Origin: Acidimicrobiaceae bacterium
Lineage (GTDB): Bacteria; Actinomycetota; Acidimicrobiia; Acidimicrobiales; RAAP-2
DNA length: 64,000 bases
Direction: 5' to 3'
Assembly (NCBI GenBank): GCA_027315315.1
Contig: DAHUYG010000050.1
Coordinates: 1-64,000, forward strand
Below, piece after piece: positions 42,518 to 59,217 of this stretch (the first letter of the stretch is position 1; each line of letters starts with the position of its first letter). Both the position numbers and the translations under genes were made by a program. The notes beneath the pieces are model-generated. The model did not search any database and had not been told where the DNA came from. It saw nothing but the letters and a program-made list of their open reading frames with translations.

Positions 42518-43543
42518 TCAGCCCGTTGCGGCGGTGGCGGCCCGACCCGGGACCGGGTTGCGCCCCGGACCACTCGCCGGCGTCCCGTAGAAGGCCCCCT
42601 CGCCGGCCACGCTCCCCCAGACGAGGACGAAGCGCCGCGCGAGCTTGGCCAACGCGACCCGGCCGCCGTCCCAGCCGAGGGCGCCCACCAGCCTCGAGGA
42701 GGCGAGCACCCAGCGCGCCGCCACCGGCGCCCGGCTCGACCCGCCCACCGAGCGCACGAGCGACCCGAGCGGGGACGGCAGGTCCTCGGTGAAGCACGAG
42801 GGGTCGAAGGGCCCGAGGTCGGGGTGCAGCCGGTGGAGCAGCTCCACCCCGGCCCCGCGTCGCCGGGCGTCGCGCAGGAACATTGCGTCGTCGCGACGAT
42901 GGCGGTGCTCGGCCACGAGCGTGGGATCGAAGACCCCCACCAGGCCGGCCGCAGCCAACCGGAGGCCGAGGTCCTGGTCAGCGTGGTAGGAGCAAGTGAA
43001 GGCGTCCGAGTGGAGCCCGACGGCGAGCGCGTCGGCCCTTCGAAGCGAGACGTTGCCGAGCCAGAGGTGCTCGAGCACCCCGAGCGCCCCGGCCTCCATC
43101 GCGGCGACGAGCGCCCGGTAGTCGCGAGCGTAGAGCCGGCTCCCGACGTCGGCCCGGCCCGCCTCGAGGGCGACCGGCATCGGCCCGACCACGACCCTTC
43201 CCGAGCGCCCGATGTGCGCAGCGGCGTGCGCCGCGGCGAGCCCGGGGCCGGGGAAGACGTCGTCGTCGAGCAAGAGCACGACCTCGGCGTCGGTCAACGA
43301 GAGCCCGGTCTCGAGCGCCCTCAGTTGGCCGCCCCTCGGCACCTGGGTGAACACGAGGCGTTCGTGGCGCCGGGAGAGCCCGGCGAGGGTGACCATCGAT
43401 GCATCGTCGTCGCCGTCGACGACGACGACGAAGTGGCGGACCGCGGCGTCGGCGAGCACCCGCTCGGCGAGCTCGTCGAGATGCTCGGGGCGCCCCATGG
43501 TCGCCATCACGACCGAGACGCTCGGTGCGCACGGGAGGCTCAC
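42518..43543 (-). CDS. Family 2 glycosyltransferase
   Basis: A 341-aa GT-A enzyme. SVSVVMATMGRPEHLDELAE opens the fold, and VVLLLDDDVFPGPGL holds the DxD metal site. HADQDLGLRLAAAG is a typical acceptor-domain motif. A Cys/Pro-rich end follows. It would add a sugar to the lipid-linked exopolysaccharide repeat made by the next gene's product. GTG 43543 overlaps the stop of the sugar transferase. Confidence 0.85.
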   Translation of the reverse strand: MSLPCAPSVSVVMATMGRPEHLDELAERVLADAAVRHFVVVVDGDDDASMVTLAGLSRRHERLVFTQVPRGGQLRALETGLSLTDAEVVLLLDDDVFPGPGLAAAHAAAHIGRSGRVVVGPMPVALEAGRADVGSRLYARDYRALVAAMEAGALGVLEHLWLGNVSLRRADALAVGLHSDAFTCSYHADQDLGLRLAAAGLVGVFDPTLVAEHRHRRDDAMFLRDARRRGAGVELLHRLHPDLGPFDPSCFTEDLPSPLGSLVRSVGGSSRAPVAARWVLASSRLVGALGWDGGRVALAKLARRFVLVWGSVAGEGAFYGTPASGPGRNPVPGRAATAATG

Positions 43544-45036
43544 CGGTCGGTTCCCACGCCCCCGCCGCGCAAGAGCCGGCCCGGGGTCCGCGACAAGATC
43601 CGGATGTCGGCCGTGAACGACCAGCTGGCCACGTACTGGCAGTCGAGGCGGCACAGCTCCTCGAAGCGAAGGTCGTGCTGGCCGCACACCTGCCAGAGCC
43701 CGGTCAGGCCCGGGCGGATCTCGAAGCGTCGCTCCACCCACTCGGGCAGGACCGAGCACTCCTCGGGGACAAAGGGGCGCGGGCCGACGAGGGACATCTC
43801 GCCGCGCAGCACGTTCCAGAGTTGGGGCAGCTCGTCGACGCCGAGCCGGCGCAGGACCCGCCCGACCGGGGTGACCCTGCTCTCGACGTCGGGCAGCTTG
43901 GCGAGCGGGACCGGCACGAGCCGCTCGCCAAGCGTCGTCTCGGTCGGACGCGGCTCGCGCATCGTGCGGAGCTTCAGGATCTCGAATGGTCGCCGGTCCT
44001 GCCCGAGGCGGGCCTGACGGAACAGGACCGGTCCCGGGGAGGTCGCCTTGATGGCGAGGATGGACGCCACGAGCACTGGCGAGGCCACAAGGAGCCCGAG
44101 CGCGGACCCCGCGAGGTCAAAGGCGCGCTTCACGAACCTCCAGAAACGAGAGGGACTGCCGCCGTCGAGGCTGATGACCGAGAGGCCGTCCAGATCCTCG
44201 AAGGTGGCCTCCCAACCGGTGAGCTCGAAGTAGCGGGGCACGACATCGACGGCGACCGCTCCGACGAGCGACCGGAGGATGTCGGTCGTCCGGGCCGGGT
44301 GCGAGCGGCTGAAGGCGACGACCACGCGGTCGATCGCCCCCACCCGGCAGATGGTCGGCAGGGAGGCCAGGTCGCCCAGGACCGGCTGGTCCGCGACCGG
44401 GTCGTCGTCGACGTAGCCGACGAGATCCACGTGTCGCGACCGTCCGAGTCGCGCCCCCACGTCGGCCGCGATGGTGCCGGTGCCCACGACGACCACGCGC
44501 GCCGGGCGCACGTCGCTGCGCCCCCGGGCACCGATCACGGCCGCCCGGGCGATCGGCAGGGCCACCGCACACCCCCCGAAGGCTGTGGCGATGGCCGCCG
44601 GGTGCAGCGGGCCGTGGAGAAGGGAGGGGAACAGGGCGCCGACCGCGAGGGTGAGGAGCGCGCCGATGACGATGGCGGACTCGAGGTTCCCGAGGTCGTC
44701 GGCCGGGGCCGGCGCGATGTGGCGGCGGGCCTTCGGGTAGACGCGCTTGGCGACGGCCGCCAGCGCGAGGGCGGTCCACGAGATGCCGACGAACTCGAGG
44801 GTGGCGAGGACCGAGGACACGCCCCCGGTGAGGGTTCCGAGAAGGTTCCCGGCGACCAGAAGGACGAGGAGCCCGACCAGGCCGTCGCTCAGCGCGAGCC
44901 AGGTCCACCCCAGCCTGCGGCGGTCGCGCTCGAGGGGGATCGAAAGGAGAGCGCGGCGCGCTCGGCTGCCACCGAGGACCGAGAGCGTGCCGGTCGGCGT
45001 CTCGATCGTGCCGCGCGGAAGGGTCCGGCTGCTCAT
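43540..45036 (-). CDS. Undecaprenyl-phosphate sugar-phosphate transferase (polyprenyl glycosylphosphotransferase)
   Basis: A 498-aa initiating enzyme of exopolysaccharide synthesis. There are four to five TM helices in the first half, a Rossmann-like central domain (VVVVGTGTIAADVGARLG), another TM (FDLAGSALGLLVASPVLVASILAI), and the catalytic C-terminus with KATSPGPVLFRQ, KLRTM, LRRLGVDELPQLWNVLRGEMSLVGPRP and PGLTGLWQV. It transfers a hexose-1-phosphate to undecaprenyl phosphate. ATG 45036 overlaps the 66-aa gene. Confidence 0.94.
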   Translation of the reverse strand: MSSRTLPRGTIETPTGTLSVLGGSRARRALLSIPLERDRRRLGWTWLALSDGLVGLLVLLVAGNLLGTLTGGVSSVLATLEFVGISWTALALAAVAKRVYPKARRHIAPAPADDLGNLESAIVIGALLTLAVGALFPSLLHGPLHPAAIATAFGGCAVALPIARAAVIGARGRSDVRPARVVVVGTGTIAADVGARLGRSRHVDLVGYVDDDPVADQPVLGDLASLPTICRVGAIDRVVVAFSRSHPARTTDILRSLVGAVAVDVVPRYFELTGWEATFEDLDGLSVISLDGGSPSRFWRFVKRAFDLAGSALGLLVASPVLVASILAIKATSPGPVLFRQARLGQDRRPFEILKLRTMREPRPTETTLGERLVPVPLAKLPDVESRVTPVGRVLRRLGVDELPQLWNVLRGEMSLVGPRPFVPEECSVLPEWVERRFEIRPGLTGLWQVCGQHDLRFEELCRLDCQYVASWSFTADIRILSRTPGRLLRGGGVGTDR

Positions 45037-45233
45037 CGCCGGACCTCGGGTTCGGCCCGGGGCCCTTGACCCCGACCCGCCGCGTCACCGGCCGTCTCGA
45101 GCACGAAGGCGAGGAGCTCGTCCACCGAGCGCACGGCGTGGCGCCGGCCCGTGGCCACCGCCTCCACGACGCCGGCGAACTGCCCCTCAGGCAGGCCGTC
45201 GGGGCGGACTCGCAGCACGTAGGAAACGAACAT
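45033..45233 (-). CDS. 66-aa conserved-looking protein of the EPS operon
   Basis: Reads MFVSYVLRVRPDGLPEGQF... with a strand-turn-strand-helix pattern (VSYVLRV, GQFAGVVEAV, RRHAVRSVDELLAFVLE) and a charged, disordered end. Its stop overlaps the ATG of the sugar transferase, and a TACCGT box lies 6 nt before its own ATG (45233). It heads the minus-strand EPS operon. No domain is recognised; it could be a small regulator of the transferase. Confidence 0.65.
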   Translation of the reverse strand: MFVSYVLRVRPDGLPEGQFAGVVEAVATGRRHAVRSVDELLAFVLETAGDAAGRGQGPRAEPEVRR

Positions 45234-45239
45234 GCCACG

Positions 45240-45245
45240 ACGGTA
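45240..45245 (-). promoter_or_regulatory. Leaderless -10 (TACCGT) of minus-strand EPS operon
   Basis: TACCGT, six bases, ATG 45233. Confidence 0.5.
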
Positions 45246-45338
45246 CGGAACGGCCGTCCGCCGACCGTCCCCGCCGAGAAGTGCCCGAGAGGGGCGAAGT
45301 GGGGACACCCGAAAGACGTTCGTGGGACCGGCCGCTCG

Positions 45339-45344
45339 TAGTCT
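45339..45344 (+). promoter_or_regulatory. Leaderless -10 (TAGTCT) of the diguanylate cyclase operon
   Basis: TAGTCT, seven bases, ATG 45352. It forms a divergent pair with the box at 45240-45245, so one intergenic region drives both EPS operons. Confidence 0.5.
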
Positions 45345-45351
45345 GCTCGCC

Positions 45352-47187
45352 ATGGAGAACGCACCGGACCAGACCCTCGAGGCTGTCCGCCTGGCCCGCG
45401 ACCTGTGCATGGGCATGGGCGCCTTCGTGGTCTCGACCAGGGGAGATGTCCGCTTCGAACTGGCTGCGCCCGGTCCCGCCGGGGTCGGCGAGCGCGTCGC
45501 GATGCTCGCCCGGTCCTGTCTCGAGCGCCCCGGCGCCCAGGGCAACGAGCCGTTCTGGAACGCCGAGATCCTGGGCGACGACGAATCGGCCGACGACTCC
45601 CTCGCCTGCGTCGCGGTGCCGATCCGCTCTGGCGCCGTGTGGTCGGGCCTCCTCGGGGTCGTGGACACCTGGCTCCCCGAGCTCGACGAAGAGCAGCGCC
45701 TCGGCCTCCTTCGCCTCAGCCAGGGCCTGGGCGAACTGGTGGCCCGGGGCGCAGTGACCCTCGGTGGCCCCGGCTTCTACGGCGCCGGGGACACCGTCAG
45801 CACCGACCACCCGACAGAGGCCCCCGGCGTCCCGGTCGTCGACGAGACCGAGGCCCCTCAGAGTGCGCCCACCGCTGTGCCGGCCAACCTCGAGGCCGAG
45901 ACCGCTCCCCTCCCCGAGGAGGGCCTCGACACCGAGATTCCCTCCGACATGGGCCTCCTCGACGAGGTAGTCGAGAACCTCCCCGAGGGCCTCGTGGTCA
46001 CCCGCGACGACGGCACCATCGTGTTCGCGAACGCGGCGTTCTCGGACCTCTCGGGCCTCCTCCCCGAGGAGACCCTCGGCCAGGACATCACCGAGCTCCT
46101 CCATCGCAACGGAACCGAGGAGACCGACACCCCGGCCGCTCTGCTCGACTCGCCGTTCCCCGGCCGGCACTTCGACCTCGCCCACGTCGATGGGGAACCC
46201 CTCCCCGTCCAGGTGAGCGGCACGCGCTTCGCCTCCCGGCTGGTCGGCGAGTGCCACATCGCCATGCTCCGCGAGGCGACGAGCGCTTCGACGGGGATCG
46301 GGACGGGGACCACCCTCCAGGTGCTCCTCGACGCGCTCGACGAGGGGATCGTCGTGTGCGACGAGCGGGGAACCGTGCTGATCGCCAACCGCGAGGCCAA
46401 GACCCTCCAGGGCCTCCCACTCGACGAGGAGCTCGTCGGGCAGCCCTTCCCCTTCTCCCCCGCACTGTGCAGCTCGGACGGCTCGCCGCTCCCAGAGACG
46501 CACCACCCGATGAGCCGGGCGCTGCACGGCACCGTCGTGCGCAGCGAGCAGCTGCAGCTGAACGGGGAGGACCGGCGCCACCTCGTCGCCTCCGCCAAGC
46601 CCTTCGAGCTCGAGAACGGGACCCTCGGCGCGCTCCTCGTGCTGCGCGACGTGACCTCGCAGCTCGAAGAGGAGGCGTGGCTCATGCACCTCGCCCTCCA
46701 CGACCCGCTCACCGGGCTCGCCAACCGCTACCTGCTGCTCGACTACCTGCGGCGGGTGCTCCTCCAGTTCCGGACCCGGGGCGGCTCGATCGCGCTCGTG
46801 TTCTTGGACCTCGACGACTTCAAGATGATCAACGACCGCTTCGGCCACGACGTGGGCGACGAGGTCCTCGTCGCGGTCGGACGCCGGATCCAGGGCGCGG
46901 TGCGCTCGAGCGACATCGTGGCCAGGCTCGGAGGGGACGAATTCGTCGTCGCCCACGCCGCCACCGAAGACCCCGGCGAGATCGAGATGGTCATCTCTCG
47001 CATCCGCAAGACGCTGACCGCTCCCTACCAGGTGCGCGGCCAGACGCTCGCCGTCACCGCCTCCATCGGCTGGGTGGCCGCCGATCCTCGCCACGAGGAC
47101 CCGACCACCCTGCTCGTCCGGGCCGACCGCGAGATGTACCGGCGCAAGAGCGCCCGACACCGGGCGGCGGAGGCCGCAGAACAATGA
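45352..47187 (+). CDS. GAF-PAS-PAS-GGDEF diguanylate cyclase
   Basis: A 611-aa soluble protein. The GAF-like head (1-125) shares the LACVAVPIRSGAVWSGLLGV block with two proteins downstream. An acidic Pro-rich linker, PAS domains at about 200-310 and 320-440, and a GGDEF domain follow. The active-site motif GGDEF is intact at 527-531, and RSSD lies five residues upstream as an I-site for c-di-GMP feedback. It should make c-di-GMP from GTP. ATG 45352; its stop overlaps the next ATG (ATGA). It probably sets the signal for the polysaccharide genes behind it. Confidence 0.92.
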   Translation: MENAPDQTLEAVRLARDLCMGMGAFVVSTRGDVRFELAAPGPAGVGERVAMLARSCLERPGAQGNEPFWNAEILGDDESADDSLACVAVPIRSGAVWSGLLGVVDTWLPELDEEQRLGLLRLSQGLGELVARGAVTLGGPGFYGAGDTVSTDHPTEAPGVPVVDETEAPQSAPTAVPANLEAETAPLPEEGLDTEIPSDMGLLDEVVENLPEGLVVTRDDGTIVFANAAFSDLSGLLPEETLGQDITELLHRNGTEETDTPAALLDSPFPGRHFDLAHVDGEPLPVQVSGTRFASRLVGECHIAMLREATSASTGIGTGTTLQVLLDALDEGIVVCDERGTVLIANREAKTLQGLPLDEELVGQPFPFSPALCSSDGSPLPETHHPMSRALHGTVVRSEQLQLNGEDRRHLVASAKPFELENGTLGALLVLRDVTSQLEEEAWLMHLALHDPLTGLANRYLLLDYLRRVLLQFRTRGGSIALVFLDLDDFKMINDRFGHDVGDEVLVAVGRRIQGAVRSSDIVARLGGDEFVVAHAATEDPGEIEMVISRIRKTLTAPYQVRGQTLAVTASIGWVAADPRHEDPTTLLVRADREMYRRKSARHRAAEAAEQ

Positions 47188-48902
47188 GCACGCCCAACCC
47201 CACCAACGGACAGGAACCGACCGCCGACCAGGCGCGCGCCGCCGGACGCCAGCTCGCCGAGCACCCGCTGCTCGCGGCGCGCAACGAGGAGGAGCGCCCG
47301 GGGCTCGTCGAGGTGTTGGCCGACGCCCGCCCGTTGCTCAGCACCCACGGCGTCGGCTTCGAGCTCCTGCGGACCCGGCCCGGTCTCGTCGTCGTCCGCG
47401 CCCGCTCCGAATCCAGCCTCTCGGCCCTCGCGGCATGCGAAATGGTGAAGGGCCTCCTCGGCGCGGTCGCCGAGCAGGTCTGCGACGTGCGCTCCTCCCT
47501 CGTCGAGAACACCTGTGCCACCCGGGGCGCCCCGGCCTGCCTGTACTCGCTGGTATGGGAGGACCAGCCGGCCACCCGCCCCAGCGTTCCGTTCGAGCCC
47601 AGCGCCCCCGCGAAAGGCCCGAGCGAGGGCTCGGGCGCGACCGACGACCTTCCGATCTGGGACACCCCGGTGACGCCGGCGGCGCCCCCACAAGGAGGGG
47701 TCGAGCCGGCGGCCAGACGGAGCACCGCGCTGCGCCCCGACGCCGTGGCGACCCCGACGGCGACGTCGTCAACCTCGTACCAGTTCCAGGTGAGCGCCCC
47801 GAGTGCCATCGTCGTGCCCGCCGCCAACGCGCCGGTCCCGGCCCCTCCCGAGCCCGTCGTCGAAGCTCCCGGGCCCACGACGCCTGCGCTCGAGGACGCG
47901 GTCCCGGCCGCCACCATCGGCCGCCGCACGTTCCCGAGGGGCCTGGTCCGGCGCAGCTGGCTGGTCGCCCTGGCGTTGGTCGCCGGCTCGGCCGGCGGCT
48001 GGTACGCGGGTCGCCACGCCGCGACCTCCTACGGCGCCGAGTCGGTGGTCGTCGTCCAGTCGGGCGCCGGCAAGACCGGCCCCGGCAGCGCCAACGACGC
48101 GATGGCCCTCGCCACGACGTACGCAGCGCTGATCCCCAAGGACGCGTCGGTCCTCTCGGCGCCGGCCGGGGTGCTCAACATGTCGAGCTCGGCCGTCGCG
48201 AGCGCGCTCAGCGTCACTGTCGAGCAGGGCACGTCGCTGCTCCAGATCAACTTCACCGCCTCGAGCGCATCCAAGGCGATCGACGGGGCGCAGGCGGTCG
48301 CCCGGGCGGTGGCCAGCTCCAAGCCGCTCACCGCGGCGATCGCCGCCGGCTCGGTCGCCATCGTGAGCGTGCCGACCAGCGCGCATCTGCAGGGCACCCT
48401 GCACAAGTACGGCATTGTGATCGGGGCCTTCCTCGGGCTCGTGATCGGGCTCATTCTCCTACTGGCGGCCGAGCGGGCCGACCCCCGCATCGACGACGCG
48501 CCGGCCATGGCCACCGCCACCCGGTGCCGGGCCGCCGTCGTGCCCGCGGACCTCTCCTTCGAAGAGCTCGCCCGGGTGCTGGCCGACGCGGGGCGTGAGC
48601 AGGGCCTGACGATCGTCCCGGTCGCCGCGGCGGACGGCGCACCGACGATGGAGCTCGCCCGGGGACTCCGCTCGTGCTGGCCGGCCGACGGCCCGGCCGT
48701 CACGATCAGCCCCTCGTTCGTCTCGGGGATCGCCGAGCTCTCTCGGGGCGCCGGGCCGACGGTGCTCGTGTCGCATCCAGGTACCCGCCAGCGCGACGTG
48801 CTGGCCGCAGCCGAGAGGCTGCGCATGATCGGGCGGTCTCCGGTGTGGGCGGTGCTCACCAACCGGCGGCTGCGCAGCCGAGTGTCGGGTCATGTGGGCT
48901 GA
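47184..48902 (+). CDS. V4R-like sensor fused to Wzz/BY-kinase-like polysaccharide co-polymerase
   Basis: A 572-aa protein. The N-terminal 130 residues (LLSTHGVGFELLRTRPGLVVVR..., CDVRSSLVENTCATRGAPACLYSLVWE) look like a V4R/heme-NO-type ligand domain. A long acidic-Pro linker leads to TM1 at about 252-278, an extracytoplasmic loop, and TM2 at about 408-432 (GIVIGAFLGLVIGLILLLAAERADP), the Wzz-like frame. The C-terminus keeps a Rossmann-like outline of bacterial tyrosine autokinases but has no Walker A lysine. Probably controls chain length or export in answer to a ligand. Coupled by ATGA to the cyclase. Confidence 0.75.
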   Translation: MSTPNPTNGQEPTADQARAAGRQLAEHPLLAARNEEERPGLVEVLADARPLLSTHGVGFELLRTRPGLVVVRARSESSLSALAACEMVKGLLGAVAEQVCDVRSSLVENTCATRGAPACLYSLVWEDQPATRPSVPFEPSAPAKGPSEGSGATDDLPIWDTPVTPAAPPQGGVEPAARRSTALRPDAVATPTATSSTSYQFQVSAPSAIVVPAANAPVPAPPEPVVEAPGPTTPALEDAVPAATIGRRTFPRGLVRRSWLVALALVAGSAGGWYAGRHAATSYGAESVVVVQSGAGKTGPGSANDAMALATTYAALIPKDASVLSAPAGVLNMSSSAVASALSVTVEQGTSLLQINFTASSASKAIDGAQAVARAVASSKPLTAAIAAGSVAIVSVPTSAHLQGTLHKYGIVIGAFLGLVIGLILLLAAERADPRIDDAPAMATATRCRAAVVPADLSFEELARVLADAGREQGLTIVPVAAADGAPTMELARGLRSCWPADGPAVTISPSFVSGIAELSRGAGPTVLVSHPGTRQRDVLAAAERLRMIGRSPVWAVLTNRRLRSRVSGHVG

Positions 48903-50397
48903 GCCGGGCGACGTCGGGCTTCTCACACCATCGCGCCGGTTGCGGGTTGGGGCGCCGGGGTACGGCTGGTTCACCGACCGGCCCCGCCCCCTCCTGCTCG
49001 GCGGAGCGGCCGTCGCGGCGGCGTTCGTCGTCGCCTATCTCGCCGTGCACAAGCTCGACCTCGGGATCGCGGCCCTCGGGGCGCTCGCGCTCGCCGCCGC
49101 GGTCCTCGTGCGCCCGGTCATTGGCGGCCTCGTGTTGGTCGGGCTGGTCCCGATCCTCTCGGGCATGCAGCCCGGCGTCCCGGTCTCCCACGTCCGGGTC
49201 TCCGAGCTGCTGATCGGCGTGGTCGGCCTCACCGTGCTCGTCTCGGCCCGACGGGTCGACGCCGTGGCCTGGGCCACCTTGGACTGGCTGCTGCTCGCCT
49301 ACGGGCTCGGATGGGCGGCCTTCGCCATCATCGACGCCGTCACCCTCGGCCAGCACTTGAGCATCACCGACTGGGGCACGGTCTTCGGCCAGCTCCAGTT
49401 CTTCCTCATCTACCGGGCGGTCCGCACGTCCCTGCGCACGAGGGCCGAGCGCAGGACCGCGGTCGCGGTCCTGCTCGTCGCGACGATCCCCGTCGCGCTG
49501 TTGGCCGCGCTCCAGACCTTCCACGTCGGCGCGGTCGAGCGGTTCATCAACCGGATCACCGGCGGCGTCGCCGGTGCCGTGCTGAGCTCGGGGTCCATCT
49601 CCCGGGCCACCGGCCCCTTCGACAACTGGGCCGTGCTCGCCGGCTACCTGCTGCCGCTGCTTCTCGTCCTCCTCGCCCTCACCTTCGCCGGCGAGACGTC
49701 CCGGTACCGCCGGACCAGCTGGGCCGTCGGGCTCGTCGCCCTCGTCGGGCTCCTGCTCTCCGAGGAGCTCTCGGCCATCGTTGTCCTCGTGATCGGGGCG
49801 GTGGTGCTCGCCAACCAGTACGGGTTCGGGCGCCGGGCCATGCGGTTCCTCGGGGTGGCGGTCGTGGTCGGCGGCATCGTCGCCGCTCCGTTCCTTGCAG
49901 CCCGCATCAATCAGGAGTTCTCCTCGTCGGCCGGCTCGGGCCGACACGCCGGGGTGCCCCAGACCCTGGACTTCCGTTGGCACATCTGGAGCAGCCAGTA
50001 CATCCCGGCCATTGAGGCCCGACCGCTCTCGGGCTACGGCGAGAAGACGCCCAGCTCGATCGAGTGGCAGTACCCCGAGTCCCAGTACATCGCGTACCTC
50101 ATGGAGGGAGGGCTCCCCCTCGTCGCGCTCTTCGGCGCCCTGTCCTGGTCGATGCTGCGCGGCACCCGGCGCGCCGCGAGGAGCGACGATCCCTTCGAAC
50201 AGGCTCTCGGGCGGGCCACGACGGTGATGGTCGTGGCCCTGCTGATCGTCAATCTCATCTGGCCGTTCATGAGCAACGCAGGCCTTCCCCAGGTGCTCTG
50301 GTGCCTGTTGGCCATCACCGTGCCCCGAGTGGCGCGACCGGTGACGAGCCCGGTGCGCGCACCCGCGCCGCTCGCCGTCCTAGGAGGTGTCCCATGA
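48892..50397 (+). CDS. O-antigen ligase/polymerase-like membrane protein (Wzy/WaaL type)
   Basis: A 501-aa protein with about eleven TM helices. The long extracytoplasmic loop (RINQEFSSSAGSGRHAGVPQTLDFRWHIWSSQYIP...RPLSGYGEKTP) carries the RxxxW and GYG features of O-antigen ligase-like domains. It likely polymerises or ligates lipid-linked repeats. ATG 48892 lies inside the end of the upstream gene (11-base overlap). Confidence 0.85.
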   Translation: MWAEPGDVGLLTPSRRLRVGAPGYGWFTDRPRPLLLGGAAVAAAFVVAYLAVHKLDLGIAALGALALAAAVLVRPVIGGLVLVGLVPILSGMQPGVPVSHVRVSELLIGVVGLTVLVSARRVDAVAWATLDWLLLAYGLGWAAFAIIDAVTLGQHLSITDWGTVFGQLQFFLIYRAVRTSLRTRAERRTAVAVLLVATIPVALLAALQTFHVGAVERFINRITGGVAGAVLSSGSISRATGPFDNWAVLAGYLLPLLLVLLALTFAGETSRYRRTSWAVGLVALVGLLLSEELSAIVVLVIGAVVLANQYGFGRRAMRFLGVAVVVGGIVAAPFLAARINQEFSSSAGSGRHAGVPQTLDFRWHIWSSQYIPAIEARPLSGYGEKTPSSIEWQYPESQYIAYLMEGGLPLVALFGALSWSMLRGTRRAARSDDPFEQALGRATTVMVVALLIVNLIWPFMSNAGLPQVLWCLLAITVPRVARPVTSPVRAPAPLAVLGGVP

Positions 50398-51545
50398 ACA
50401 TCGGCAGACGGTGGCGCGCGATTAGGCGCAGGGCGGTCCGCCCGTTTGGACCCACGCGGTTACTCGGCTCGCTCTCGCTGCTCGCCGCCCTGGGCGTGGC
50501 CGTGTGGCTGCTCACGCTCGTGGTCTCGGAGAACGCGCTCACCCCGGCGGCCGCCGGCCCCCCGTCGACCGCCACCCCGCCGGCGACGAGGACCACACCC
50601 GCCCCCCGGGCCTCGACTGCGCCGAGCACCGCGCCCCGGACCCCGACCACAAAGCCCAAGGTCGTCGCGCCGACCGTGCCCCTCGGCGTCTACGCCGGCC
50701 CGGGCGCACCCCTCGCCGCCAGCGCGTTCAGCGCAGACGCCGGCGCGCCAGTCCCCTACGCGTTCGACTACATCGACGGGTCGACCTGGGCCGGGATCTC
50801 GAACCCCTCGTGGTTCTTGCAGCGCTGGAACGGCTCGGGCTTCCGGATGATCTGGGGCGTCCCGATGCTCCCCAAGACGGCGGGCGTCTCGCTCGCCACC
50901 GGCGCGACCGGCGCCTACAACGCATACTTCGACGCGCTCGCCCAGACCCTGGTGGCGAACGGGCAGGCCAACTCGGTCATCGTGCTCGCCTGGGACCCCC
51001 AGGACACCTCTTTACCGTGGTACGTGGGCAACTCGGCCGACGCCGTCCAGTACGTCGCCTACTGGCGAGCGATCGTGACCACCATGCGCTCGGTGCCCGG
51101 CGAGCAGTTCCAGTTCGTCTGGGACAGCGCGACGGGTCCGGCCGACGTGCTACCAAGCGCGCTCTACCCGGGCAACAACTACGTGGACGTCGTCGCGACC
51201 GACGCCTTCGACGACGACTCGCTCGTCGGCTCGGGGTGGAACGCCTTCACGACGACCCCCTATGGCCCCGACTGGTACTCGACGTTCGCACTCCGCCACG
51301 CCAAGCCGCTCATGATCGCGAAGTGGGGCGTGGTGCCGAGCAGCGAGCAGGGCGGGGGCGACAACGCCGCCTTCGTCGACCAGTTCCTGCGGTGGGCCGA
51401 CGGTCAGCATCTGTTCGCCGCGATCACCTGGGACTACGGCACCTGGGCGGTGACCGGCGGGACCTTCCCCAAGGCCGAGGCCGCCCTGCACACCGTCGAC
51501 GAGGCCGGTGCCATCGCCCCCGAGGCGAAGGCCATCGAGACCTGA
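50394..51545 (+). CDS. GH26-like membrane-anchored protein lacking catalytic Glu residues
   Basis: A 383-aa protein. An N-terminal TM (LLGSLSLLAALGVAVWLLTLVV) and a Thr/Pro-rich linker precede a TIM-barrel domain like beta-mannanase family GH26. Where GH26 has its acid/base Glu in a W-E-x-N-type motif, the sequence reads AWDPQDTSLPWY (Asp201). The nucleophile region that normally reads MIAEWG is MIAKWG (Lys310). Both catalytic carboxylates seem changed, so it may bind glycan without cutting it. ATG 50394 has AGGAGG and overlaps the upstream stop. Confidence 0.75.
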   Translation: MNIGRRWRAIRRRAVRPFGPTRLLGSLSLLAALGVAVWLLTLVVSENALTPAAAGPPSTATPPATRTTPAPRASTAPSTAPRTPTTKPKVVAPTVPLGVYAGPGAPLAASAFSADAGAPVPYAFDYIDGSTWAGISNPSWFLQRWNGSGFRMIWGVPMLPKTAGVSLATGATGAYNAYFDALAQTLVANGQANSVIVLAWDPQDTSLPWYVGNSADAVQYVAYWRAIVTTMRSVPGEQFQFVWDSATGPADVLPSALYPGNNYVDVVATDAFDDDSLVGSGWNAFTTTPYGPDWYSTFALRHAKPLMIAKWGVVPSSEQGGGDNAAFVDQFLRWADGQHLFAAITWDYGTWAVTGGTFPKAEAALHTVDEAGAIAPEAKAIET

Positions 51546-51810: not shown

Positions 51811-53298
51811 ATGACTGACCAAGGGAGCACGAACGGGACCCATGGCGGGGTCGGCCACCTCCTGCGGATGGCGAAGACCCAGTGCGGGGTGACGATGGCC
51901 TTCGCCGCGTTGCGCAAGGCCGACGGCGGATTCGCGATCGCGACGTTCCCCACCCTCAGCGCGGATCCGACCTGGTCCGTCGAGGCCATCGACGAGCTGG
52001 TCCGCCAGACATGGGACGACCCCCACCTGGCCGGGGGCAGCGTGCTCGTGCGCAGCGGACGGATCTTGAAGGGGATGTGGACTGGGCAGGCCAACCACAT
52101 CAAGCTCGCGGCCGCCGCACTGAGCGACCCCGAGTCGCCCGAGGTGCCGTGGGGGCTCCTGTGCGTCGCCGAACCGCTGGGCGGCCACTTCGAGCAGGAC
52201 CAGCTGAACCTGCTCGGAAACCTGGCCGTCCGGCTCACCGCCTACCTCCGGGCCCGCCAGCAGGTGCTCGAGGGCTCGCCGGCCTTCGAGTCCGCCACGG
52301 CCCCGAGCGCGCCCGAGGCTCCGCCCGAGCCTGCGTACGAGCCGATGGTCGAGACCCCTCCCGTCGCCGAGCCCCGGACCATCTCCGATTCGTCCGCGCC
52401 CTTCTTGGGCTTCGAGGAGCAGCCGGCTCCCGGCCCCTTCGACGACCTGTTCGGCCCCGAGGACGAGGAGCATCCGCTCGATCTCGCGGCCGACGCGTTC
52501 GAGCCCGAGGCCACCCGATGGGGCGCGGTCGGCGAGCCCCGCGAGCCGCGGGCCGACGATTGGGAGTTCCTCGGCCTGGAGGAGATCGAGTGGGTCGAGG
52601 CGGCCACGCCGATCCCGCCGGCGCCCGTGACGCCGACCAGCTTCGAGCCGATGGCGCCCCCGCCCGTCGCCACGCTCGAACCCACGATCTCCTTCGAGAC
52701 CGCCGAGGATGCGGCCAGCGTGGTCACGACCGACCCCGAGACCACCGACGCGGCGGCAACCTGGCACGAGACGGCCGACACCGGGGGCGGCCCGACATTC
52801 GGCACCCGGGCCGACGAACCTGCCCGAGGTCCTGGGGCACCGACCATGCCTAGCGAACTGGACTCGCTGCTCGGGCCCGATCCGGTCACCGGGTTGGCCA
52901 GCCTGACGACCCTCATCGGGCGGCTCAGCACCTCGCTCGCGCACGTGCGCAACAACGAGGGCACCGTGGGCCTGGTCCTGATCGACGTGGGCGCCCCGGA
53001 GCCCGGGCCGCTCAGCACGACCGCGCTCATGACGGTCGCCGGCCGCCTGACCAACCACCTGCGCGACCGCGACATGGTCGCCCGGATCGGTCCGGCGCTC
53101 TTCGCCGTCATGGTCGACCTGCGCCCCGGCGCCGTCGATCTCGAGGTCATCTTGGAGCGGTCCATCACCTCGCTCACCGGGGGCACCGAGCGGGGTGGGC
53201 TCACGACCCGATCGGCCATGGTGTCGGCGACCGCCGGCAGCACCGTCAGCGCCGAGGAGCTGCTCCGCGAGGCTGCTGACCAGCTCCGGCGGCAGTGA
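51811..53298 (+). CDS. GAF plus degenerate GGDEF signalling protein
   Basis: A 495-aa soluble protein. The GAF-like domain (GGVGHLLRMAK..., VPWGLLCVAEPLGG) is followed by an acidic, Pro-rich linker of about 190 residues and a GGDEF-fold domain that keeps GPDPVTGLASLTTLIGRLSTSLAHVR near 353. The signature site reads IGPALF near 424 instead of GGDEF, so it cannot be a normal cyclase. It may bind a nucleotide or act as a partner. It is a paralog of the C-terminal half of the next protein. ATG 51811 has GGAGG upstream. Confidence 0.85.
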   Translation: MTDQGSTNGTHGGVGHLLRMAKTQCGVTMAFAALRKADGGFAIATFPTLSADPTWSVEAIDELVRQTWDDPHLAGGSVLVRSGRILKGMWTGQANHIKLAAAALSDPESPEVPWGLLCVAEPLGGHFEQDQLNLLGNLAVRLTAYLRARQQVLEGSPAFESATAPSAPEAPPEPAYEPMVETPPVAEPRTISDSSAPFLGFEEQPAPGPFDDLFGPEDEEHPLDLAADAFEPEATRWGAVGEPREPRADDWEFLGLEEIEWVEAATPIPPAPVTPTSFEPMAPPPVATLEPTISFETAEDAASVVTTDPETTDAAATWHETADTGGGPTFGTRADEPARGPGAPTMPSELDSLLGPDPVTGLASLTTLIGRLSTSLAHVRNNEGTVGLVLIDVGAPEPGPLSTTALMTVAGRLTNHLRDRDMVARIGPALFAVMVDLRPGAVDLEVILERSITSLTGGTERGGLTTRSAMVSATAGSTVSAEELLREAADQLRRQ

Positions 53299-53332: not shown

Positions 53333-55837
53333 ATGACGGCGACCACCGCGACCGAGACCCCCGCACCCCGCCCGTCGCTCGGCCAGCTCGCGATCCGTGG
53401 CGGCGGCTATCTCGTCGGTCGCGAGGCGCTCGGCATGATCCTGCGACTGGTGGGCGTCGTCCTCGTCGTCCGCGAGATCGGACCGGGGGCCTACGGCCTC
53501 TACAGCGGCGCAGCGGCCTTCGTCATGTTCGCAGTGAGCTTCGCCCAATCGGGCCTCGAGGTCTACCTGGTCCGCCTGCCCGGCGAGGTGGGCCGACGCC
53601 AGTACAACCAGGCCTTCACCCTCCTGCTCGTGGTGTCGATCGTCGTCACCGGCCTGGCCGAGGCGCTCTCGTTCGCGCTCGGCGGCGTGTTGCGGCCTGT
53701 GGGGGTCCTCCCCCCGCTGCGGATCCTCCTCTTGAGCATCCCGGTCAACGTCTTGTGGGCGCCGGCCCAGGCGTCGATCGAACGTGGGTTCCGGTACCGG
53801 GCCATGGGGCTGCTCGAGCTCGGCGGCGACGTCGTCTTGTACGCGACCGCGATCCCGCTCGCCTTCCTGGGTAAGGGGGAGTGGGCGCTCGTGGCGGGGT
53901 TCTTCGCCTGGCAGACCTGGCTCTTCATCGGCAGCTGGGTCGTCTCGGGCCTCCGCTTCCGGCTCGACTGGTCGATCACGGCCGTGCGGGACATGGCGCG
54001 CCACGGGGTTACGTACTCCTCGGCCTACTGGGCCGGCCGCCTCGCAGATCTCGTCAACCCGCTCGTCGTCGGCACCTTCCTCGGTGCAACGGGGGTGGGA
54101 TACGTGGCTTTCGCCCAGCGTCTGGTCGAGACGATCGCGTTCGCGAAGCGCGGCGCCTACCGCCTGGGCATGGTGGCGATGTCACGGCTCGGCGACGACG
54201 AATTGGCGAGACAGCGCTATTCGGTCGAGGAGGGCATGCTCCTCCAGCTGCTCACCGTAGCGGTGCCCTTTGCGTGCTTCGGCGTCGTCGCCCGGTGGGC
54301 GGTGCCGGCCATCTTCGGGCACGAGTGGGCCCGGGCAGTCCCGCTCTACAGCCTCCTCGCGCTCGCGTCGGTGCTGAGCGCCGTCCAGTTCATCCAGACG
54401 ACGTTCCTCTTCAGCCGCGGCAGGAACATCGCGGTGAGCGCGGTGGCGATCGTCCAGAGCCTCTGCATCGCGCTCGGCGCGGTGTTCCTCGTCCGTCGCT
54501 TCGGTCTCGACGGGTTCGGCGAGGCCTGGCTGGTCGGGCTCCTCGCGCTCTTCGTGTGCGACCGCATCGTTCGGCGGATGTTCACCTTCAGCTATCGGCG
54601 CATCGTCCCGTGGGTGCTCGTCCTCGGGCCGCCGGTGCTGTTCCCGCTCCTTGCGCCGCCCTGGGGTCTGCTCTTATTCGTCCCGCTTGGGGGGATCGCC
54701 GCACCGCCGATGCGCGCCGAGGTCGTGCGGATCGTGGGCTTCGTGCGCAGCGCCCTCGCCGGTCGGACCCGGGCCACCGCCACCGACGCCGCACTGGTCG
54801 GAGCGGGCCCGCGCCAACCCGCCCTCGGCCCCGACGACCATGGGCTCGGCGGCGTCGGTCGTCTGCTCTCAATGGTGAAGGCGGAGAGCCGGGCGGCGGT
54901 GGCCTTCGCCGCGGTCCGCCGGGCCGACGGCCACTTCGCGAGCGTCGCCATCCCAGCCACGGTGCCCGGGACCCCGTGGTCCCCCGATGCGCTGGACTCC
55001 CTGGTGCGCCAGGGCTGGGCGCAAGCGGGCGGGGGCGCCGGCGGGTTTCAGTGGCCGGCCTCGGTGCCGGGCCACGGCGGCGAACCGCGGCTTGTCGGTG
55101 CCGGCGCGGCCCCGCTCGCGGACCCCGGCGAACCGGGTGCCCCCTGGGGGCTGCTTGGCGTGGCTGGGGTGTCGAGCGGCCACCTCGTGCAGCGCGAGCT
55201 CGACCTGCTCGGGCACCTGGCCGGCCGGCTCACGGCCTTCCTCCGGGCACGGGACCGGTTGGCGGACCCGGCGGTGCTCGAGGCGCGCCCACCCGAGCCC
55301 GCTGTGGCGGCCAACCCGCTCGCGAGCGAGCTCGACGTCCTGCTCGGTCCCGACCCGCTGACCGGGCTCGCCACGCTGACCGCCCTCGTCGGGCGGCTCA
55401 GCACCTCGCTCGCCCACCTGCGCGACCAACCCGGGAGCGTGGGGCTCATCCTGATCGAGGTCACCGAGCCCGACGGCTGGCGACTCCCGAGCTCGACGGC
55501 GCTCCTCGACGTGGCCTGTCGCCTCACCCGCCATCTGAGGGAGCGGGATTTGATCGCGCGGATCGGGCCGTCGACCTTCGCGCTCCTGGTCGACCTGCTG
55601 CCCGGGCCGATCGACGTCGACGCCATCCGCGATCGCGCCATCGCCTCGCTCGGCGGCGGCATCGCCGCCGGGGGCGGCGAGCTCAAGACCCGCTCGGGGA
55701 TCGCTTGTGCGACGACCGGCACGGCACTCGGCGCCGAGCACCTGCTCCGCGTCGCCGCGGCCCAGATGCGCGCAGCGAGCGCCCAGGTCGTCCCGCCCGC
55801 GGCCCGCTCGGGGTTCGTCCCGGGGACGAGCAGATGA
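53333..55837 (+). CDS. Wzx/MOP-type flippase fused to GAF-degenerate GGDEF module
   Basis: An 834-aa fusion. Residues 1 to about 490 form a polysaccharide transporter of the MOP/PST superfamily with about twelve TM helices (GREALGMILRLVGVVLVVREIGPGAYGLYS, GRLADLVNPLVVGTFLGATGVGYVAFAQRLV). From about 506 the protein repeats the module of the upstream gene: GGVGRLLSMVK, PWGLLGVAG, GPDPLTGLATLTALVGRLSTSLAHLR near 673, and degenerate IGPSTF near 741 instead of GGDEF. The frame is open throughout. I know of no described flippase with an attached GGDEF-fold domain; it suggests gating of export by a nucleotide signal (inference). ATG 53333. Confidence 0.87.
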   Translation: MTATTATETPAPRPSLGQLAIRGGGYLVGREALGMILRLVGVVLVVREIGPGAYGLYSGAAAFVMFAVSFAQSGLEVYLVRLPGEVGRRQYNQAFTLLLVVSIVVTGLAEALSFALGGVLRPVGVLPPLRILLLSIPVNVLWAPAQASIERGFRYRAMGLLELGGDVVLYATAIPLAFLGKGEWALVAGFFAWQTWLFIGSWVVSGLRFRLDWSITAVRDMARHGVTYSSAYWAGRLADLVNPLVVGTFLGATGVGYVAFAQRLVETIAFAKRGAYRLGMVAMSRLGDDELARQRYSVEEGMLLQLLTVAVPFACFGVVARWAVPAIFGHEWARAVPLYSLLALASVLSAVQFIQTTFLFSRGRNIAVSAVAIVQSLCIALGAVFLVRRFGLDGFGEAWLVGLLALFVCDRIVRRMFTFSYRRIVPWVLVLGPPVLFPLLAPPWGLLLFVPLGGIAAPPMRAEVVRIVGFVRSALAGRTRATATDAALVGAGPRQPALGPDDHGLGGVGRLLSMVKAESRAAVAFAAVRRADGHFASVAIPATVPGTPWSPDALDSLVRQGWAQAGGGAGGFQWPASVPGHGGEPRLVGAGAAPLADPGEPGAPWGLLGVAGVSSGHLVQRELDLLGHLAGRLTAFLRARDRLADPAVLEARPPEPAVAANPLASELDVLLGPDPLTGLATLTALVGRLSTSLAHLRDQPGSVGLILIEVTEPDGWRLPSSTALLDVACRLTRHLRERDLIARIGPSTFALLVDLLPGPIDVDAIRDRAIASLGGGIAAGGGELKTRSGIACATTGTALGAEHLLRVAAAQMRAASAQVVPPAARSGFVPGTSR

Positions 55838-56262
55838 GCGACGACCTCTCCGTCGGCGTCGACCTCGTCGACATCGCCGAGGTGGCCCGCTCGGTAAAGC
55901 GCTTCGGCGACCGCTACCTTCGTCGCGTCTTCACCGAGCACGAGATCGCCTGTTGCCAGGGGCCACCCGAGGTCGCAGCGGCCGCCCTCGCGGCGCGCTT
56001 CGCGGCCAAGGAAGCGACCTTGAAGGTCCTGGCCCCCGAGGACGCCCGACCGGACTGGCGCAGCATCGAGGTGGTGCGGCTTCCGACCGGCGCCTGCAAG
56101 CTACGCCTGCGGGGGGCGGCGGCCCGCCTCGCCGTCCAGCGAGGACTCGGGCCCTTCGCCCTATCCATGACCCACGAGGCGGGGCTGGCGGCGGCCGTGG
56201 TCGTGAGCGGGTCCGCGCCTGGCGTGGGCGAGCGGCCGACAATGGAAGCCCCCCGAGGGTGA
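55834..56262 (+). CDS. acpS: Holo-[acyl-carrier-protein] synthase-like phosphopantetheinyl transferase
   Basis: A 142-aa AcpS-type enzyme. GVDLVDIAEV with the Mg-binding Asp and FAAKEATLKVL with the catalytic Glu-Lys are present. It transfers 4'-phosphopantetheine from CoA to a carrier protein. ATG 55834 overlaps the flippase stop (ATGA), and the carrier gene follows 14 bases later, so its partner is probably that small carrier protein. Whether it is also the cell's only AcpS cannot be told. Confidence 0.92.
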   Translation: MSDDLSVGVDLVDIAEVARSVKRFGDRYLRRVFTEHEIACCQGPPEVAAAALAARFAAKEATLKVLAPEDARPDWRSIEVVRLPTGACKLRLRGAAARLAVQRGLGPFALSMTHEAGLAAAVVVSGSAPGVGERPTMEAPRG

Positions 56263-56276
56263 CGGAGGAAGGGTCG

Positions 56277-56519
56277 ATGAGAGAGCAGATCCGCGCGGTG
56301 ATCGCCGAGCACGCCCGCCTGTCGACCCCGATCGACCAGCTGGGCGACGACGGCGACCTTTTCGCGGCCGGCATGACCTCGCACGCGAGCGTCAACGTGA
56401 TGCTCGCCCTTGAGGACGCCTTCGACGTCGAGTTTCCCGAGGCCCTGCTGCGCAAGTCGACCTTCGAGACGGTGTCGAGCATCGAGGCCGCGCTCTTCGA
56501 GCTGACGGTGTCGGTGTGA
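56277..56519 (+). CDS. Acyl/aminoacyl carrier protein
   Basis: An 80-aa carrier protein. GDDGDLFAAGMTSHASVNVMLALEDAFDVEFPE matches the ACP core. The phosphopantetheine Ser is probably Ser35 in GMTSHAS, where common ACPs have DSL, so Asp and Leu are changed to Thr and His. Similar carriers accompany the aaRS-like ligases. ATG 56277 has GGAGGAAGGG upstream. Its stop overlaps the ligase start. Confidence 0.9.
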   Translation: MREQIRAVIAEHARLSTPIDQLGDDGDLFAAGMTSHASVNVMLALEDAFDVEFPEALLRKSTFETVSSIEAALFELTVSV

Positions 56520-57451
56520 TCGTCCCAGTCGGCGAGGACGCCGCGGCGGGCGACCCCCACCAGGAGCTCCACGACCGGCTCGTCGAGGCGGGGCTTTTGT
56601 TCTCGACGCCCGTCCAGGGCCTCTACGGGCGCTCGGAGACCTACCAGGGGGTGGTCCGCGCAATCGACGCGATGGTGCACCGCTGGGCGCTCGAGCTCGC
56701 CGCGACCACGATCCACGTGCCGCCGGTGATCGCCCGGAGCACCTTCGACGCCACCAACTACCTCCAGTCGTTCCCCGACCTCATGGGCTCGGTCCACATC
56801 TTTCGGGGCACCGACCGAGAGCACGCCGAGCTGGTACGCCGGGTCGAGGCCGGCGGGGACTGGCAGGCGCTCCTCGAACCGGGCGAGGTCGTCCTCTCGT
56901 CGGCCGCCTGCCACGCGCTCTACCCGATGATCGGCGGCCGGCTCCCGGCCGGGGGCCGCGTCTTCGAGGTGAGCGGGCTCTGCTTCCGGCACGAGCCGAG
57001 CACCGACCCGGCGCGCATGCAGTCCTTCGGCATGCACGAGGTCGTCTTCGTGGGCGACCCCGACGGCGCCCAGCGCCACCGCGACCGGGGCCTCGAGGTG
57101 GCGCTCGGGCTCCTCGGCGACCTCGGACTGGAGGCCGAGCCGGTGCCGGCCAACGACCCGTTCTTCGGCCGCCTCGGCACGGCACTCGCCACCAGCCAAC
57201 TCGAGGAGGAGCTGAAGCTCGAGGCGGTCACCCCGATCTTCGCCGGGCGCGACCGCACGGCCATCGTCTCGGGCAACTGCCACCGGGACCACTTCGCCCA
57301 GCCCTTCGGCATCGAGAGCGACACCGGCGAACCCGCCCACAGCGCATGCGTCGCCTTCGGGGTCGACCGGATCACGATCGCGCTCTTCGCCCGCCACGGC
57401 CTCGAGCCCGCGAGCTGGCCCGACGAGGTCACAGCGGCCCTCTTTCCGTGA
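56516..57451 (+). CDS. aaRS-like amino acid:[carrier protein] ligase
   Basis: A 311-aa class II aminoacyl-tRNA-synthetase-like enzyme related to atypical archaeal SerRS but without the tRNA-binding domain. Likely zinc ligands are Cys132 (SSAACHALY), a Glu in the 160-175 region (CFRHEPS or MHEVVF) and Cys255 (SGNCHRDHFAQPFG). The motif 3-like VAFGVDRITIALF is at the end. Known homologs (Bradyrhizobium type) load glycine or alanine onto carrier proteins, not tRNA. GTG 56516 overlaps the carrier gene. It should charge the adjacent carrier. Confidence 0.9.
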   Translation: MIVPVGEDAAAGDPHQELHDRLVEAGLLFSTPVQGLYGRSETYQGVVRAIDAMVHRWALELAATTIHVPPVIARSTFDATNYLQSFPDLMGSVHIFRGTDREHAELVRRVEAGGDWQALLEPGEVVLSSAACHALYPMIGGRLPAGGRVFEVSGLCFRHEPSTDPARMQSFGMHEVVFVGDPDGAQRHRDRGLEVALGLLGDLGLEAEPVPANDPFFGRLGTALATSQLEEELKLEAVTPIFAGRDRTAIVSGNCHRDHFAQPFGIESDTGEPAHSACVAFGVDRITIALFARHGLEPASWPDEVTAALFP

Positions 57452-59217
57452 GTGAGGTCGAGGTCACGCACGCCACCGGTCGGGGCGCCACCCCCGCGGC
57501 CGGGGATCCGGGGCGATCCCGGGAGCGGGCCGGCGTCGACCACATGGTGACCGCCACCCCGCTGTGGTTCGGGCCCGAGCACCGTCCCCTCTTCGGGTGG
57601 GTGCACGGGCCGGCCGACCGCCGCAGCGCGGGCGCCGTGGTCCTGTGCCCGCCGCTCGCCCGGGAGCTCGCCTGCGCGCACTACACCTACCGCCTGCTGG
57701 CCGAGGAACTGGCCGAGGCCGGGATGCTCGCGATCCGCTTCGACTACGACGGCACCGGGGACTCGGCCGGCTCCGAGCGCGACCCGGGGCGCGTCGCAGC
57801 CTGGCTCGAGAGCATCGGCGAGGCGATCGCACTTGCCAGGCGGTGCGGGGTGACGAACGTGTCGCTCGTCGGGATGCGCATGGGTGCGCTCCTCGCAGCG
57901 GTGGCCGCAGCGCGCCAGGGCGGGGTCGACGGCCTCGTGCTGTGGGACCCCTTGGCATCGGGCCGGTCCTTCCTCCGGGAGCAGTCGGCCCTCCAGCGGC
58001 TCCGCAGCGACCTAAAGCCGCTCGACGACGGCCGGGTCGAGCTGCCCGGATTCGTCTACAGCGCCGAGACCGTCGCCGAGCTCGGCGCACTGGCCATGCC
58101 CGAGCCGGCCCGGGTCCCGAGGCGGGCGCTCGTCTTGACCCGCCCCGAGCGCACCCCGCTCAACGGGTTGATCGAGCGGTTGGGCGTCGAGCCCGAGCTC
58201 GGCGAGGCGATCGGCCAGGACCAGTTGCTCGAGGTGGAACCGCTCTACCACGAGATCCCCAAGGCGACGAGCGCCCGGATCGTCGAGTGGCTCGGGAAAG
58301 AAGAGGCCGAGCCCCGCGTCGAGCTCAACGTGCCGGTCCGCGACCGGGCGTCCTTCCACCACGACGGGGCCCGCCTGACCGAGCGCTTCGTGTGGCTCGG
58401 GGACGTCTCGATGTTCGGCGTGGTGACCGAGCCCGAGCAACGGCTGGACGCCCCGAGCATCATGTTGCTCAACGCGGGCAACGACTGGCACGTCGGCCCC
58501 AACCGCCTGTGGGTCGACGTCGCCCGGCGCTGGGCCGCCCTCGGGTTCCGCTGCCTGCGCTTCGACGAGAGCGGACTCGGCGACAGTCCCGCCAGGCCCG
58601 GGGTCCGCTCGCACGTGGTGCGGCTCCCCGAGACCTTCGAGGACGTGCACGAGGCCCAGGACTCCCTGGAGCCGGGCGACCCCACGAACGTGATCATGGT
58701 CGGCCTGTGCTCGGGCGGCTACCAGGCGCTCGAGAACGCGCTGGTCCGGCCGGCCCGCGGGGTCTACGCGATCAACCCGATCCTGCACTTCACCCCGCCC
58801 GAGCTCGCCTGGGGCCCGATGGACCCCCGCCGGCGCATCTGCTTCCCCTCGAGCTCGCTCGTGTCGGCCTACCGCAACATCCCGGGGCTGGCCCCCCTGC
58901 GCCGGGGCGTGCGTGGGATCGCCTGGCGCGCGCTGCGCCTGTTGCACCGCGACCGGGACCCCTCCAGCTGGCTGGACGAGCTCCGCGAGAGCGGGGTGCG
59001 TGTCCTTGTCATCGGGGGCGAGAACGAGACCCGGCCCTTCGGGACTCCCGCGGGCACCGGCGATGCGGAGCTCGTCCAGATCGAGGTCGTGCCCGGCCTC
59101 GACCATGCGCTCATGCCGGCCTGGCACCGCGACGCCGTGCTCCAGCGGATGACCGAGCATCTCGTGGAGCACTTCGCGCCGGGGGCCGGCTCCCGGCCCG
59201 GGCGCCCGTCGGCCTGA
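57448..59217 (+). CDS. Tandem alpha/beta hydrolase
   Basis: A 589-aa protein with two alpha/beta-hydrolase domains. Domain 1 (about 35-280) has RFDYDGTGDSAG and a nucleophile elbow SLVGMRMGAL near 142, in which the expected Ser is Arg, so it seems inactive. Domain 2 (about 340-575) has RFDESGLGDSPA, an elbow VGLCSGGYQ near 420 with Cys in the nucleophile place, and a late His in VVPGLDHALM. Similar paired hydrolases occur in polysaccharide and exosortase loci. It may release or transfer the aminoacyl group of the carrier (inference). GTG 57448 overlaps the ligase stop. Confidence 0.82.
   Translation: MSEVEVTHATGRGATPAAGDPGRSRERAGVDHMVTATPLWFGPEHRPLFGWVHGPADRRSAGAVVLCPPLARELACAHYTYRLLAEELAEAGMLAIRFDYDGTGDSAGSERDPGRVAAWLESIGEAIALARRCGVTNVSLVGMRMGALLAAVAAARQGGVDGLVLWDPLASGRSFLREQSALQRLRSDLKPLDDGRVELPGFVYSAETVAELGALAMPEPARVPRRALVLTRPERTPLNGLIERLGVEPELGEAIGQDQLLEVEPLYHEIPKATSARIVEWLGKEEAEPRVELNVPVRDRASFHHDGARLTERFVWLGDVSMFGVVTEPEQRLDAPSIMLLNAGNDWHVGPNRLWVDVARRWAALGFRCLRFDESGLGDSPARPGVRSHVVRLPETFEDVHEAQDSLEPGDPTNVIMVGLCSGGYQALENALVRPARGVYAINPILHFTPPELAWGPMDPRRRICFPSSSLVSAYRNIPGLAPLRRGVRGIAWRALRLLHRDRDPSSWLDELRESGVRVLVIGGENETRPFGTPAGTGDAELVQIEVVPGLDHALMPAWHRDAVLQRMTEHLVEHFAPGAGSRPGRPSA

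Follow-up and report, generated by a model that had tools for sequence, protein, structure and literature searches.

A Wzx-type flippase fused to a GAF and degenerate GGDEF module, a possible c-di-GMP receptor, in a polysaccharide locus of a soil actinobacterium

In an uncultured soil actinobacterium, a polysaccharide flippase of the MOP/Wzx type and a module of a GAF and a degenerate GGDEF domain are encoded as one protein, in a single unbroken frame of 834 codons starting with ATG (53333-55837, + strand; coordinates are those of the window, the whole stretch of 64,000 nucleotides that was analysed). The window (G000:C30) comes from a genome of 2.47 Mb. An earlier note on this DNA had read the frame as an uninterrupted flippase-receptor fusion, and this is confirmed by an independent genome, G005, which encodes a matching protein of 838 aa, 75% identical, with the same GAF-GGDEF tail. 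Therefore, the fusion is neither chance nor sequencing error. In the open-access papers that we searched, no flippase carrying a GGDEF tail is described. Our analysis suggests that the tail may be a PelD-like c-di-GMP receptor module that controls the flippase, a proposal to which we give about an even chance. Its fuller form, in which the Wzx flippase would be gated directly by c-di-GMP at the membrane-crossing step through a covalently attached receptor with an inhibitory site (I-site), made at least twice from the neighbouring receptor gene, is put forward more tentatively.

The features of the protein can be assigned along the + strand by sequence and by fold. The flippase part (residues 1-480, 53333-54772) matches Pfam Polysacc_synt_3 (PF13440, residues 46-337, 9e-32), and the best Foldseek match of the membrane part is WzxE (9g9n/9g9p), with a TM-score of 0.69-0.80 normalised by target length; MurJ, which shares the MOP fold, is also matched. 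The protein is thus a MOP/Wzx polysaccharide flippase by sequence and fold, as the earlier note had proposed, and is predicted to flip lipid-linked repeat units. In the full-length AlphaFold2 model (mean pLDDT 77), the helical membrane part extends to about residue 476 and is followed by a low-confidence linker (residues 481-502, 54773-54838; pLDDT below 50 at 477-505), beyond which come a GAF-like and then a GGDEF-like domain. The GAF domain and its following helix (residues 503-646, 54839-55270) find no match by Pfam in the window protein itself; they are recognised by their similarity to the corresponding domain encoded by the stand-alone gene next to the flippase, by homologues that match GAF or GAF_2 in Pfam, and by the model. 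The degenerate GGDEF-fold domain (residues 662-817, 55316-55783) matches Pfam GGDEF above the cut-off (residues 674-817, 3e-6). Modelled alone, the tail reaches a pLDDT of 84 and folds as GAF plus GGDEF, in agreement with the domains first read from the letters. Its fold matches by Foldseek and VIA are GAF/PAS-GGDEF cyclases and PleD (Z ~19), and PleD bound to c-di-GMP is among the top matches; PelD is not among the best 50 fold-search matches listed for the tail.

The tail has lost the catalytic residues of a diguanylate cyclase. Where the GGDEF signature would be expected, it reads GPSTF (residues 745-749, 55565-55579), just as the earlier note had it. We aligned 27 degenerate domains, 10 from flippase tails and 17 from stand-alone proteins, with 30 canonical GGDEFs of these loci. 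The degenerate domains lack the N-R after DxLTGL, the metal aspartates, and the FK, N-D, GH, and G-D residues; the GGDEF motif itself is lost in 27/27, the other catalytic columns are mostly or wholly lost, and the FK-ND-GH loop is deleted. These losses rule out an active diguanylate cyclase. The arginine and aspartate of the RxxD motif of the c-di-GMP inhibitory site are retained in all 27 domains and read RERD in the window tail (residues 736-739, 55538-55549). Only 4 of the 149 well-filled columns are invariant (G, L, R, and D), and the R and D are those of the I-site, kept in 10/10 tails despite a median pairwise identity of 29%. At the third I-site position, normally arginine, 18 of the 27 domains have R and the other nine have H, the g4 and g8 tails being among the latter. 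All three residues are present in the window tail as R736, D739, and R768 (Arg768 codon, 55634-55636), the last in a column that we take to be that of PleD R390. The same column holds R402 of PelD, which requires the three I-site residues for c-di-GMP binding and for biofilm formation (PMC7112168). RxxD is also carried by 29/30 canonical GGDEFs of these loci and by 26/27 across the phylum, the latter set being biased to best matches, and the whole RxxDxxARxGxxxF stretch is conserved; the retention of the I-site may therefore be partly structural. As a diagnostic on its own, RxxD is weakened by its presence in nearly all canonical GGDEFs sampled from the phylum, and its retention in the tails is suggestive of a c-di-GMP receptor rather than proof of one. 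The window tail combines a GAF and a degenerate GGDEF in one protein, as PelD does, and has the features of a PelD-like I-site receptor, namely the GGDEF fold, RxxD, and the third arginine; it may bind c-di-GMP through these residues.

Directly upstream of the flippase lies a gene for a stand-alone GAF plus degenerate GGDEF protein of 495 aa (51811-53298, +), which the earlier note overlooked as a homologue of the tail. It is the likely source of the tail: the two are 56% identical in the GGDEF part and 42-43% in the GAF part (143 aa, E=1e-33), and the gene adjoins the flippase in those loci of the family that could be read. In G203 and G252, which belong to another family, it is also present in the locus, beyond the GH26 gene. 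The linker between GAF and GGDEF of the stand-alone protein is otherwise variable and proline-rich, and genus g1 conserves in it an acidic stretch, DDWEFLGLxxIEWVEA, which is absent from the tails and is possibly a docking motif.

The surrounding genes form a Wzx/Wzy polysaccharide cluster, with an initiating transferase, Wzy, and Wzz beside the flippase, and the stand-alone GAF-GGDEF gene is a conserved member of it. The initiating polyprenyl glycosylphosphotransferase (43540-45036, - strand; TIGR03025 3e-91, above cut-off) is followed, all on the + strand, by a PAS-GGDEF protein with intact GGDEF, a candidate diguanylate cyclase conserved in the loci of relatives (45232-47187; Pfam GGDEF 7e-44), a Wzz-like co-polymerase (47184-48902; TIGR01006 9e-6, below cut-off), a Wzy-type polymerase/ligase (48892-50397; Pfam Wzy_C 8e-12), a GH26-like protein (50394-51545; Pfam Glyco_hydro_26 3e-5), the stand-alone receptor, the flippase, and an ACPS-like gene (55834-56262) whose ATG shares bases with the stop codon of the fusion (ATGA), a junction comparable to that in unfused relatives. 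The N-terminal part of the Wzz-like protein resembles the small-molecule-binding V4R domain (Pfam E 0.076, also below cut-off); the flippase may thus not be the only export protein here that carries its own sensor. Ten locus proteins scanned against Pfam gave no match to Pel families; Wzy, Wzz, and the initiating transferase are there instead. Downstream of the flippase, ACPS-like, acyl-carrier-like, and alpha/beta-hydrolase genes (55834-59217) are kept in nearly all relatives of the family.

Related loci are found in Acidimicrobiaceae and other actinobacterial MAGs, and in a search of a phylum sample the flippase subfamily turned up only within the order. The ten fused flippase copies that we compared represent each of the three genera in this Acidimicrobiales family. 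The GAF is retained in only two of them, which we count against a receptor role. In the window's genus, G003, G004, and G006 have a GGDEF-type tail without GAF, as do G013 and four g4 copies, one each in G086 and G094 and two in G089. G089 carries its two fused flippases in separate loci (L070, L071), each beside its own stand-alone receptor and polysaccharide genes. Most such tails score below the Pfam GGDEF cut-off and may therefore go unannotated. The tail is absent from G001, G002, G017, G018, G532, G487, G203, and G252. In G203 and G252, long open frames reflect only GC-rich DNA that stays open upstream, not a fusion; the flippases themselves end at 505-519 aa. In G213, from another family, the flippase frame continues without a stop into a GH26-like protein (L084:2717-5266, 850 aa); either this flippase C-terminus has been joined in frame to another partner, or a start has gone unannotated.

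The tails appear to derive from the neighbouring gene more than once. In a tree of the GGDEF part, the tails of g4 and g8 group with the stand-alone proteins of g4 and g8 (100/99), and those of g1 with the stand-alone proteins of g1 (92/90). The tree test rejects a common origin for all the tails (p-AU 2e-5) but is compatible with one for the five g1 tails (p 0.5), and the flippase tree requires three changes in the fused state. Therefore, either the neighbour gave rise to tails on two or more occasions, or tails and neighbour were homogenised repeatedly. That the same two partners were joined more than once argues for a working contact between them. Selection on the tail is weaker than on the flippase. 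In the comparison of G000 with G005, the flippase has a dN/dS of 0.14, the tail GAF one of 0.39, and the tail GGDEF one of 0.29; the tail reaches 0.47 between G003 and G006. Across genus g1 the tail spans 0.29-0.47 against 0.14-0.17 for the flippase, another point that we count against a receptor role. All values lie well below 1, so the tail is under constraint, though of a weaker kind than that on the flippase and on the stand-alone protein.

G000 has 8 strong GGDEF and 8 EAL domain matches and no PilZ domain in the whole genome, so c-di-GMP is probably both made and degraded, and receptors of another type are to be expected. Most likely, c-di-GMP from the PAS-GGDEF cyclase of the locus and from other cyclases would occupy the tail. 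The occupied tail might then pack differently against the cytoplasmic face of the flippase, or pair differently with the stand-alone receptor, and this change would permit or speed the flipping of lipid-linked repeat units. Since relatives have fused flippase and receptor at least twice, polymer export may be switched at membrane crossing. Of the earlier note's proposal that control sits at this step, the fusion and the degenerate GGDEF stand as observed. A regulatory role of the tail has indirect backing from the invariant RxxD, the cyclase of the locus, the turnover of c-di-GMP without PilZ, and the repeated fusion; that the tail binds a ligand, which way the effect runs, and that flipping is the controlled step we infer.

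Other readings have to be weighed against a receptor that controls flipping. The tail could be a docking or dimerisation module that binds no ligand and brings the flippase to the polymerase complex by pairing with the stand-alone protein or the cyclase, leaving any sensing to the stand-alone protein alone. Because the tail is paralogous to the adjacent gene, mixed pairs are plausible, and a standing protein contact would favour repeated fusion; the GAF is missing from the tails of G003, G004, G006, G013, and the g4 copies, and the third I-site arginine is not universal. A pure scaffold, however, would not need the I-site R and D that all ten tails keep at 29% median identity, unless these are structural, and we consider the docking module rather unlikely. 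It is less likely again that the tail is a drifting passenger, a duplicated piece of the neighbour captured in frame and tolerated without a function of its own. Such a passenger would fit a tail that is the fastest evolving part of the protein (dN/dS 0.29-0.47), is absent from close relatives, and varies in length and domain content, but dN/dS stays well below 1 in every comparison, the fold is modelled with confidence, the R and D never vary, and there were two or more fusion events.

Two further readings concern the frame itself. An in-frame ATG at 54872 (residue 514), just past the junction, might serve as an internal start and yield a separate soluble receptor besides the fusion. We regard this as very unlikely, given the unbroken frame, the fusion conserved in other genomes, and the stand-alone copy already adjacent. 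A frame or assembly error that joins two genes is refuted by the same architecture in G005 and by GGDEF-only tails in eight further flippase copies, and we assign it practically no probability. The earlier note would have taken relatives with two separate genes and a stop at this point as grounds to reject the fusion, and such relatives exist in part. A stop at the tail start does occur in G001, G002, G017, and G018, but there the tail is wholly absent and only the upstream receptor gene is kept, which indicates gain or loss of the tail, not a frame error. The tail-less flippases of G001 and G002 are ~68-70% identical to that of the window, and their stop codon adjoins the next gene or overlaps it, much as in the fusion. 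This type of flippase can thus do without the tail, which also counts against a receptor role.

If c-di-GMP does control the flippase through its tail, the Wzx/Wzy pathway would be under messenger control at membrane crossing, and because the receptor is fused to the flippase, one soluble domain and one chain suffice to ask whether the messenger acts at translocation. The fusion also suggests that the PelD-type degenerate-GGDEF receptor recurs in another class of export system. Like the window tail, PelD of Pseudomonas aeruginosa and Bacillus cereus, from the Pel polysaccharide system, has a GAF followed by a degenerate GGDEF with RxxD and a third arginine, is encoded in a polysaccharide locus, and joins its cytosolic domain to a membrane part (PMC7112168, PMC8461298). 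Unlike the window module, which is fused to a Wzx-type flippase in a Wzx/Wzy locus, PelD stands as a membrane protein of its own and belongs to a synthase-dependent system. PelG is a MOP-type transporter. PelD forms complexes with PelG and PelE (PMC8461298). In the cellulose system, BcsE likewise has a degenerate GGDEF that retains the I-site and acts as a c-di-GMP receptor (PMC8461298), but it is a soluble accessory protein of a synthase system. The lipid III flippase WzxE, the best structural match of the membrane part, is without a cytoplasmic receptor tail. The nearest architectural parallel is mycobacterial MurJ (MviN), a MOP flippase whose cytoplasmic C-terminus is fused to a pseudokinase, a regulatory domain without catalytic activity (PMC6180346). 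MurJ handles lipid II and is controlled by phosphorylation and FhaA, whereas the window protein carries a GAF and a dead GGDEF and belongs to an exopolysaccharide locus.
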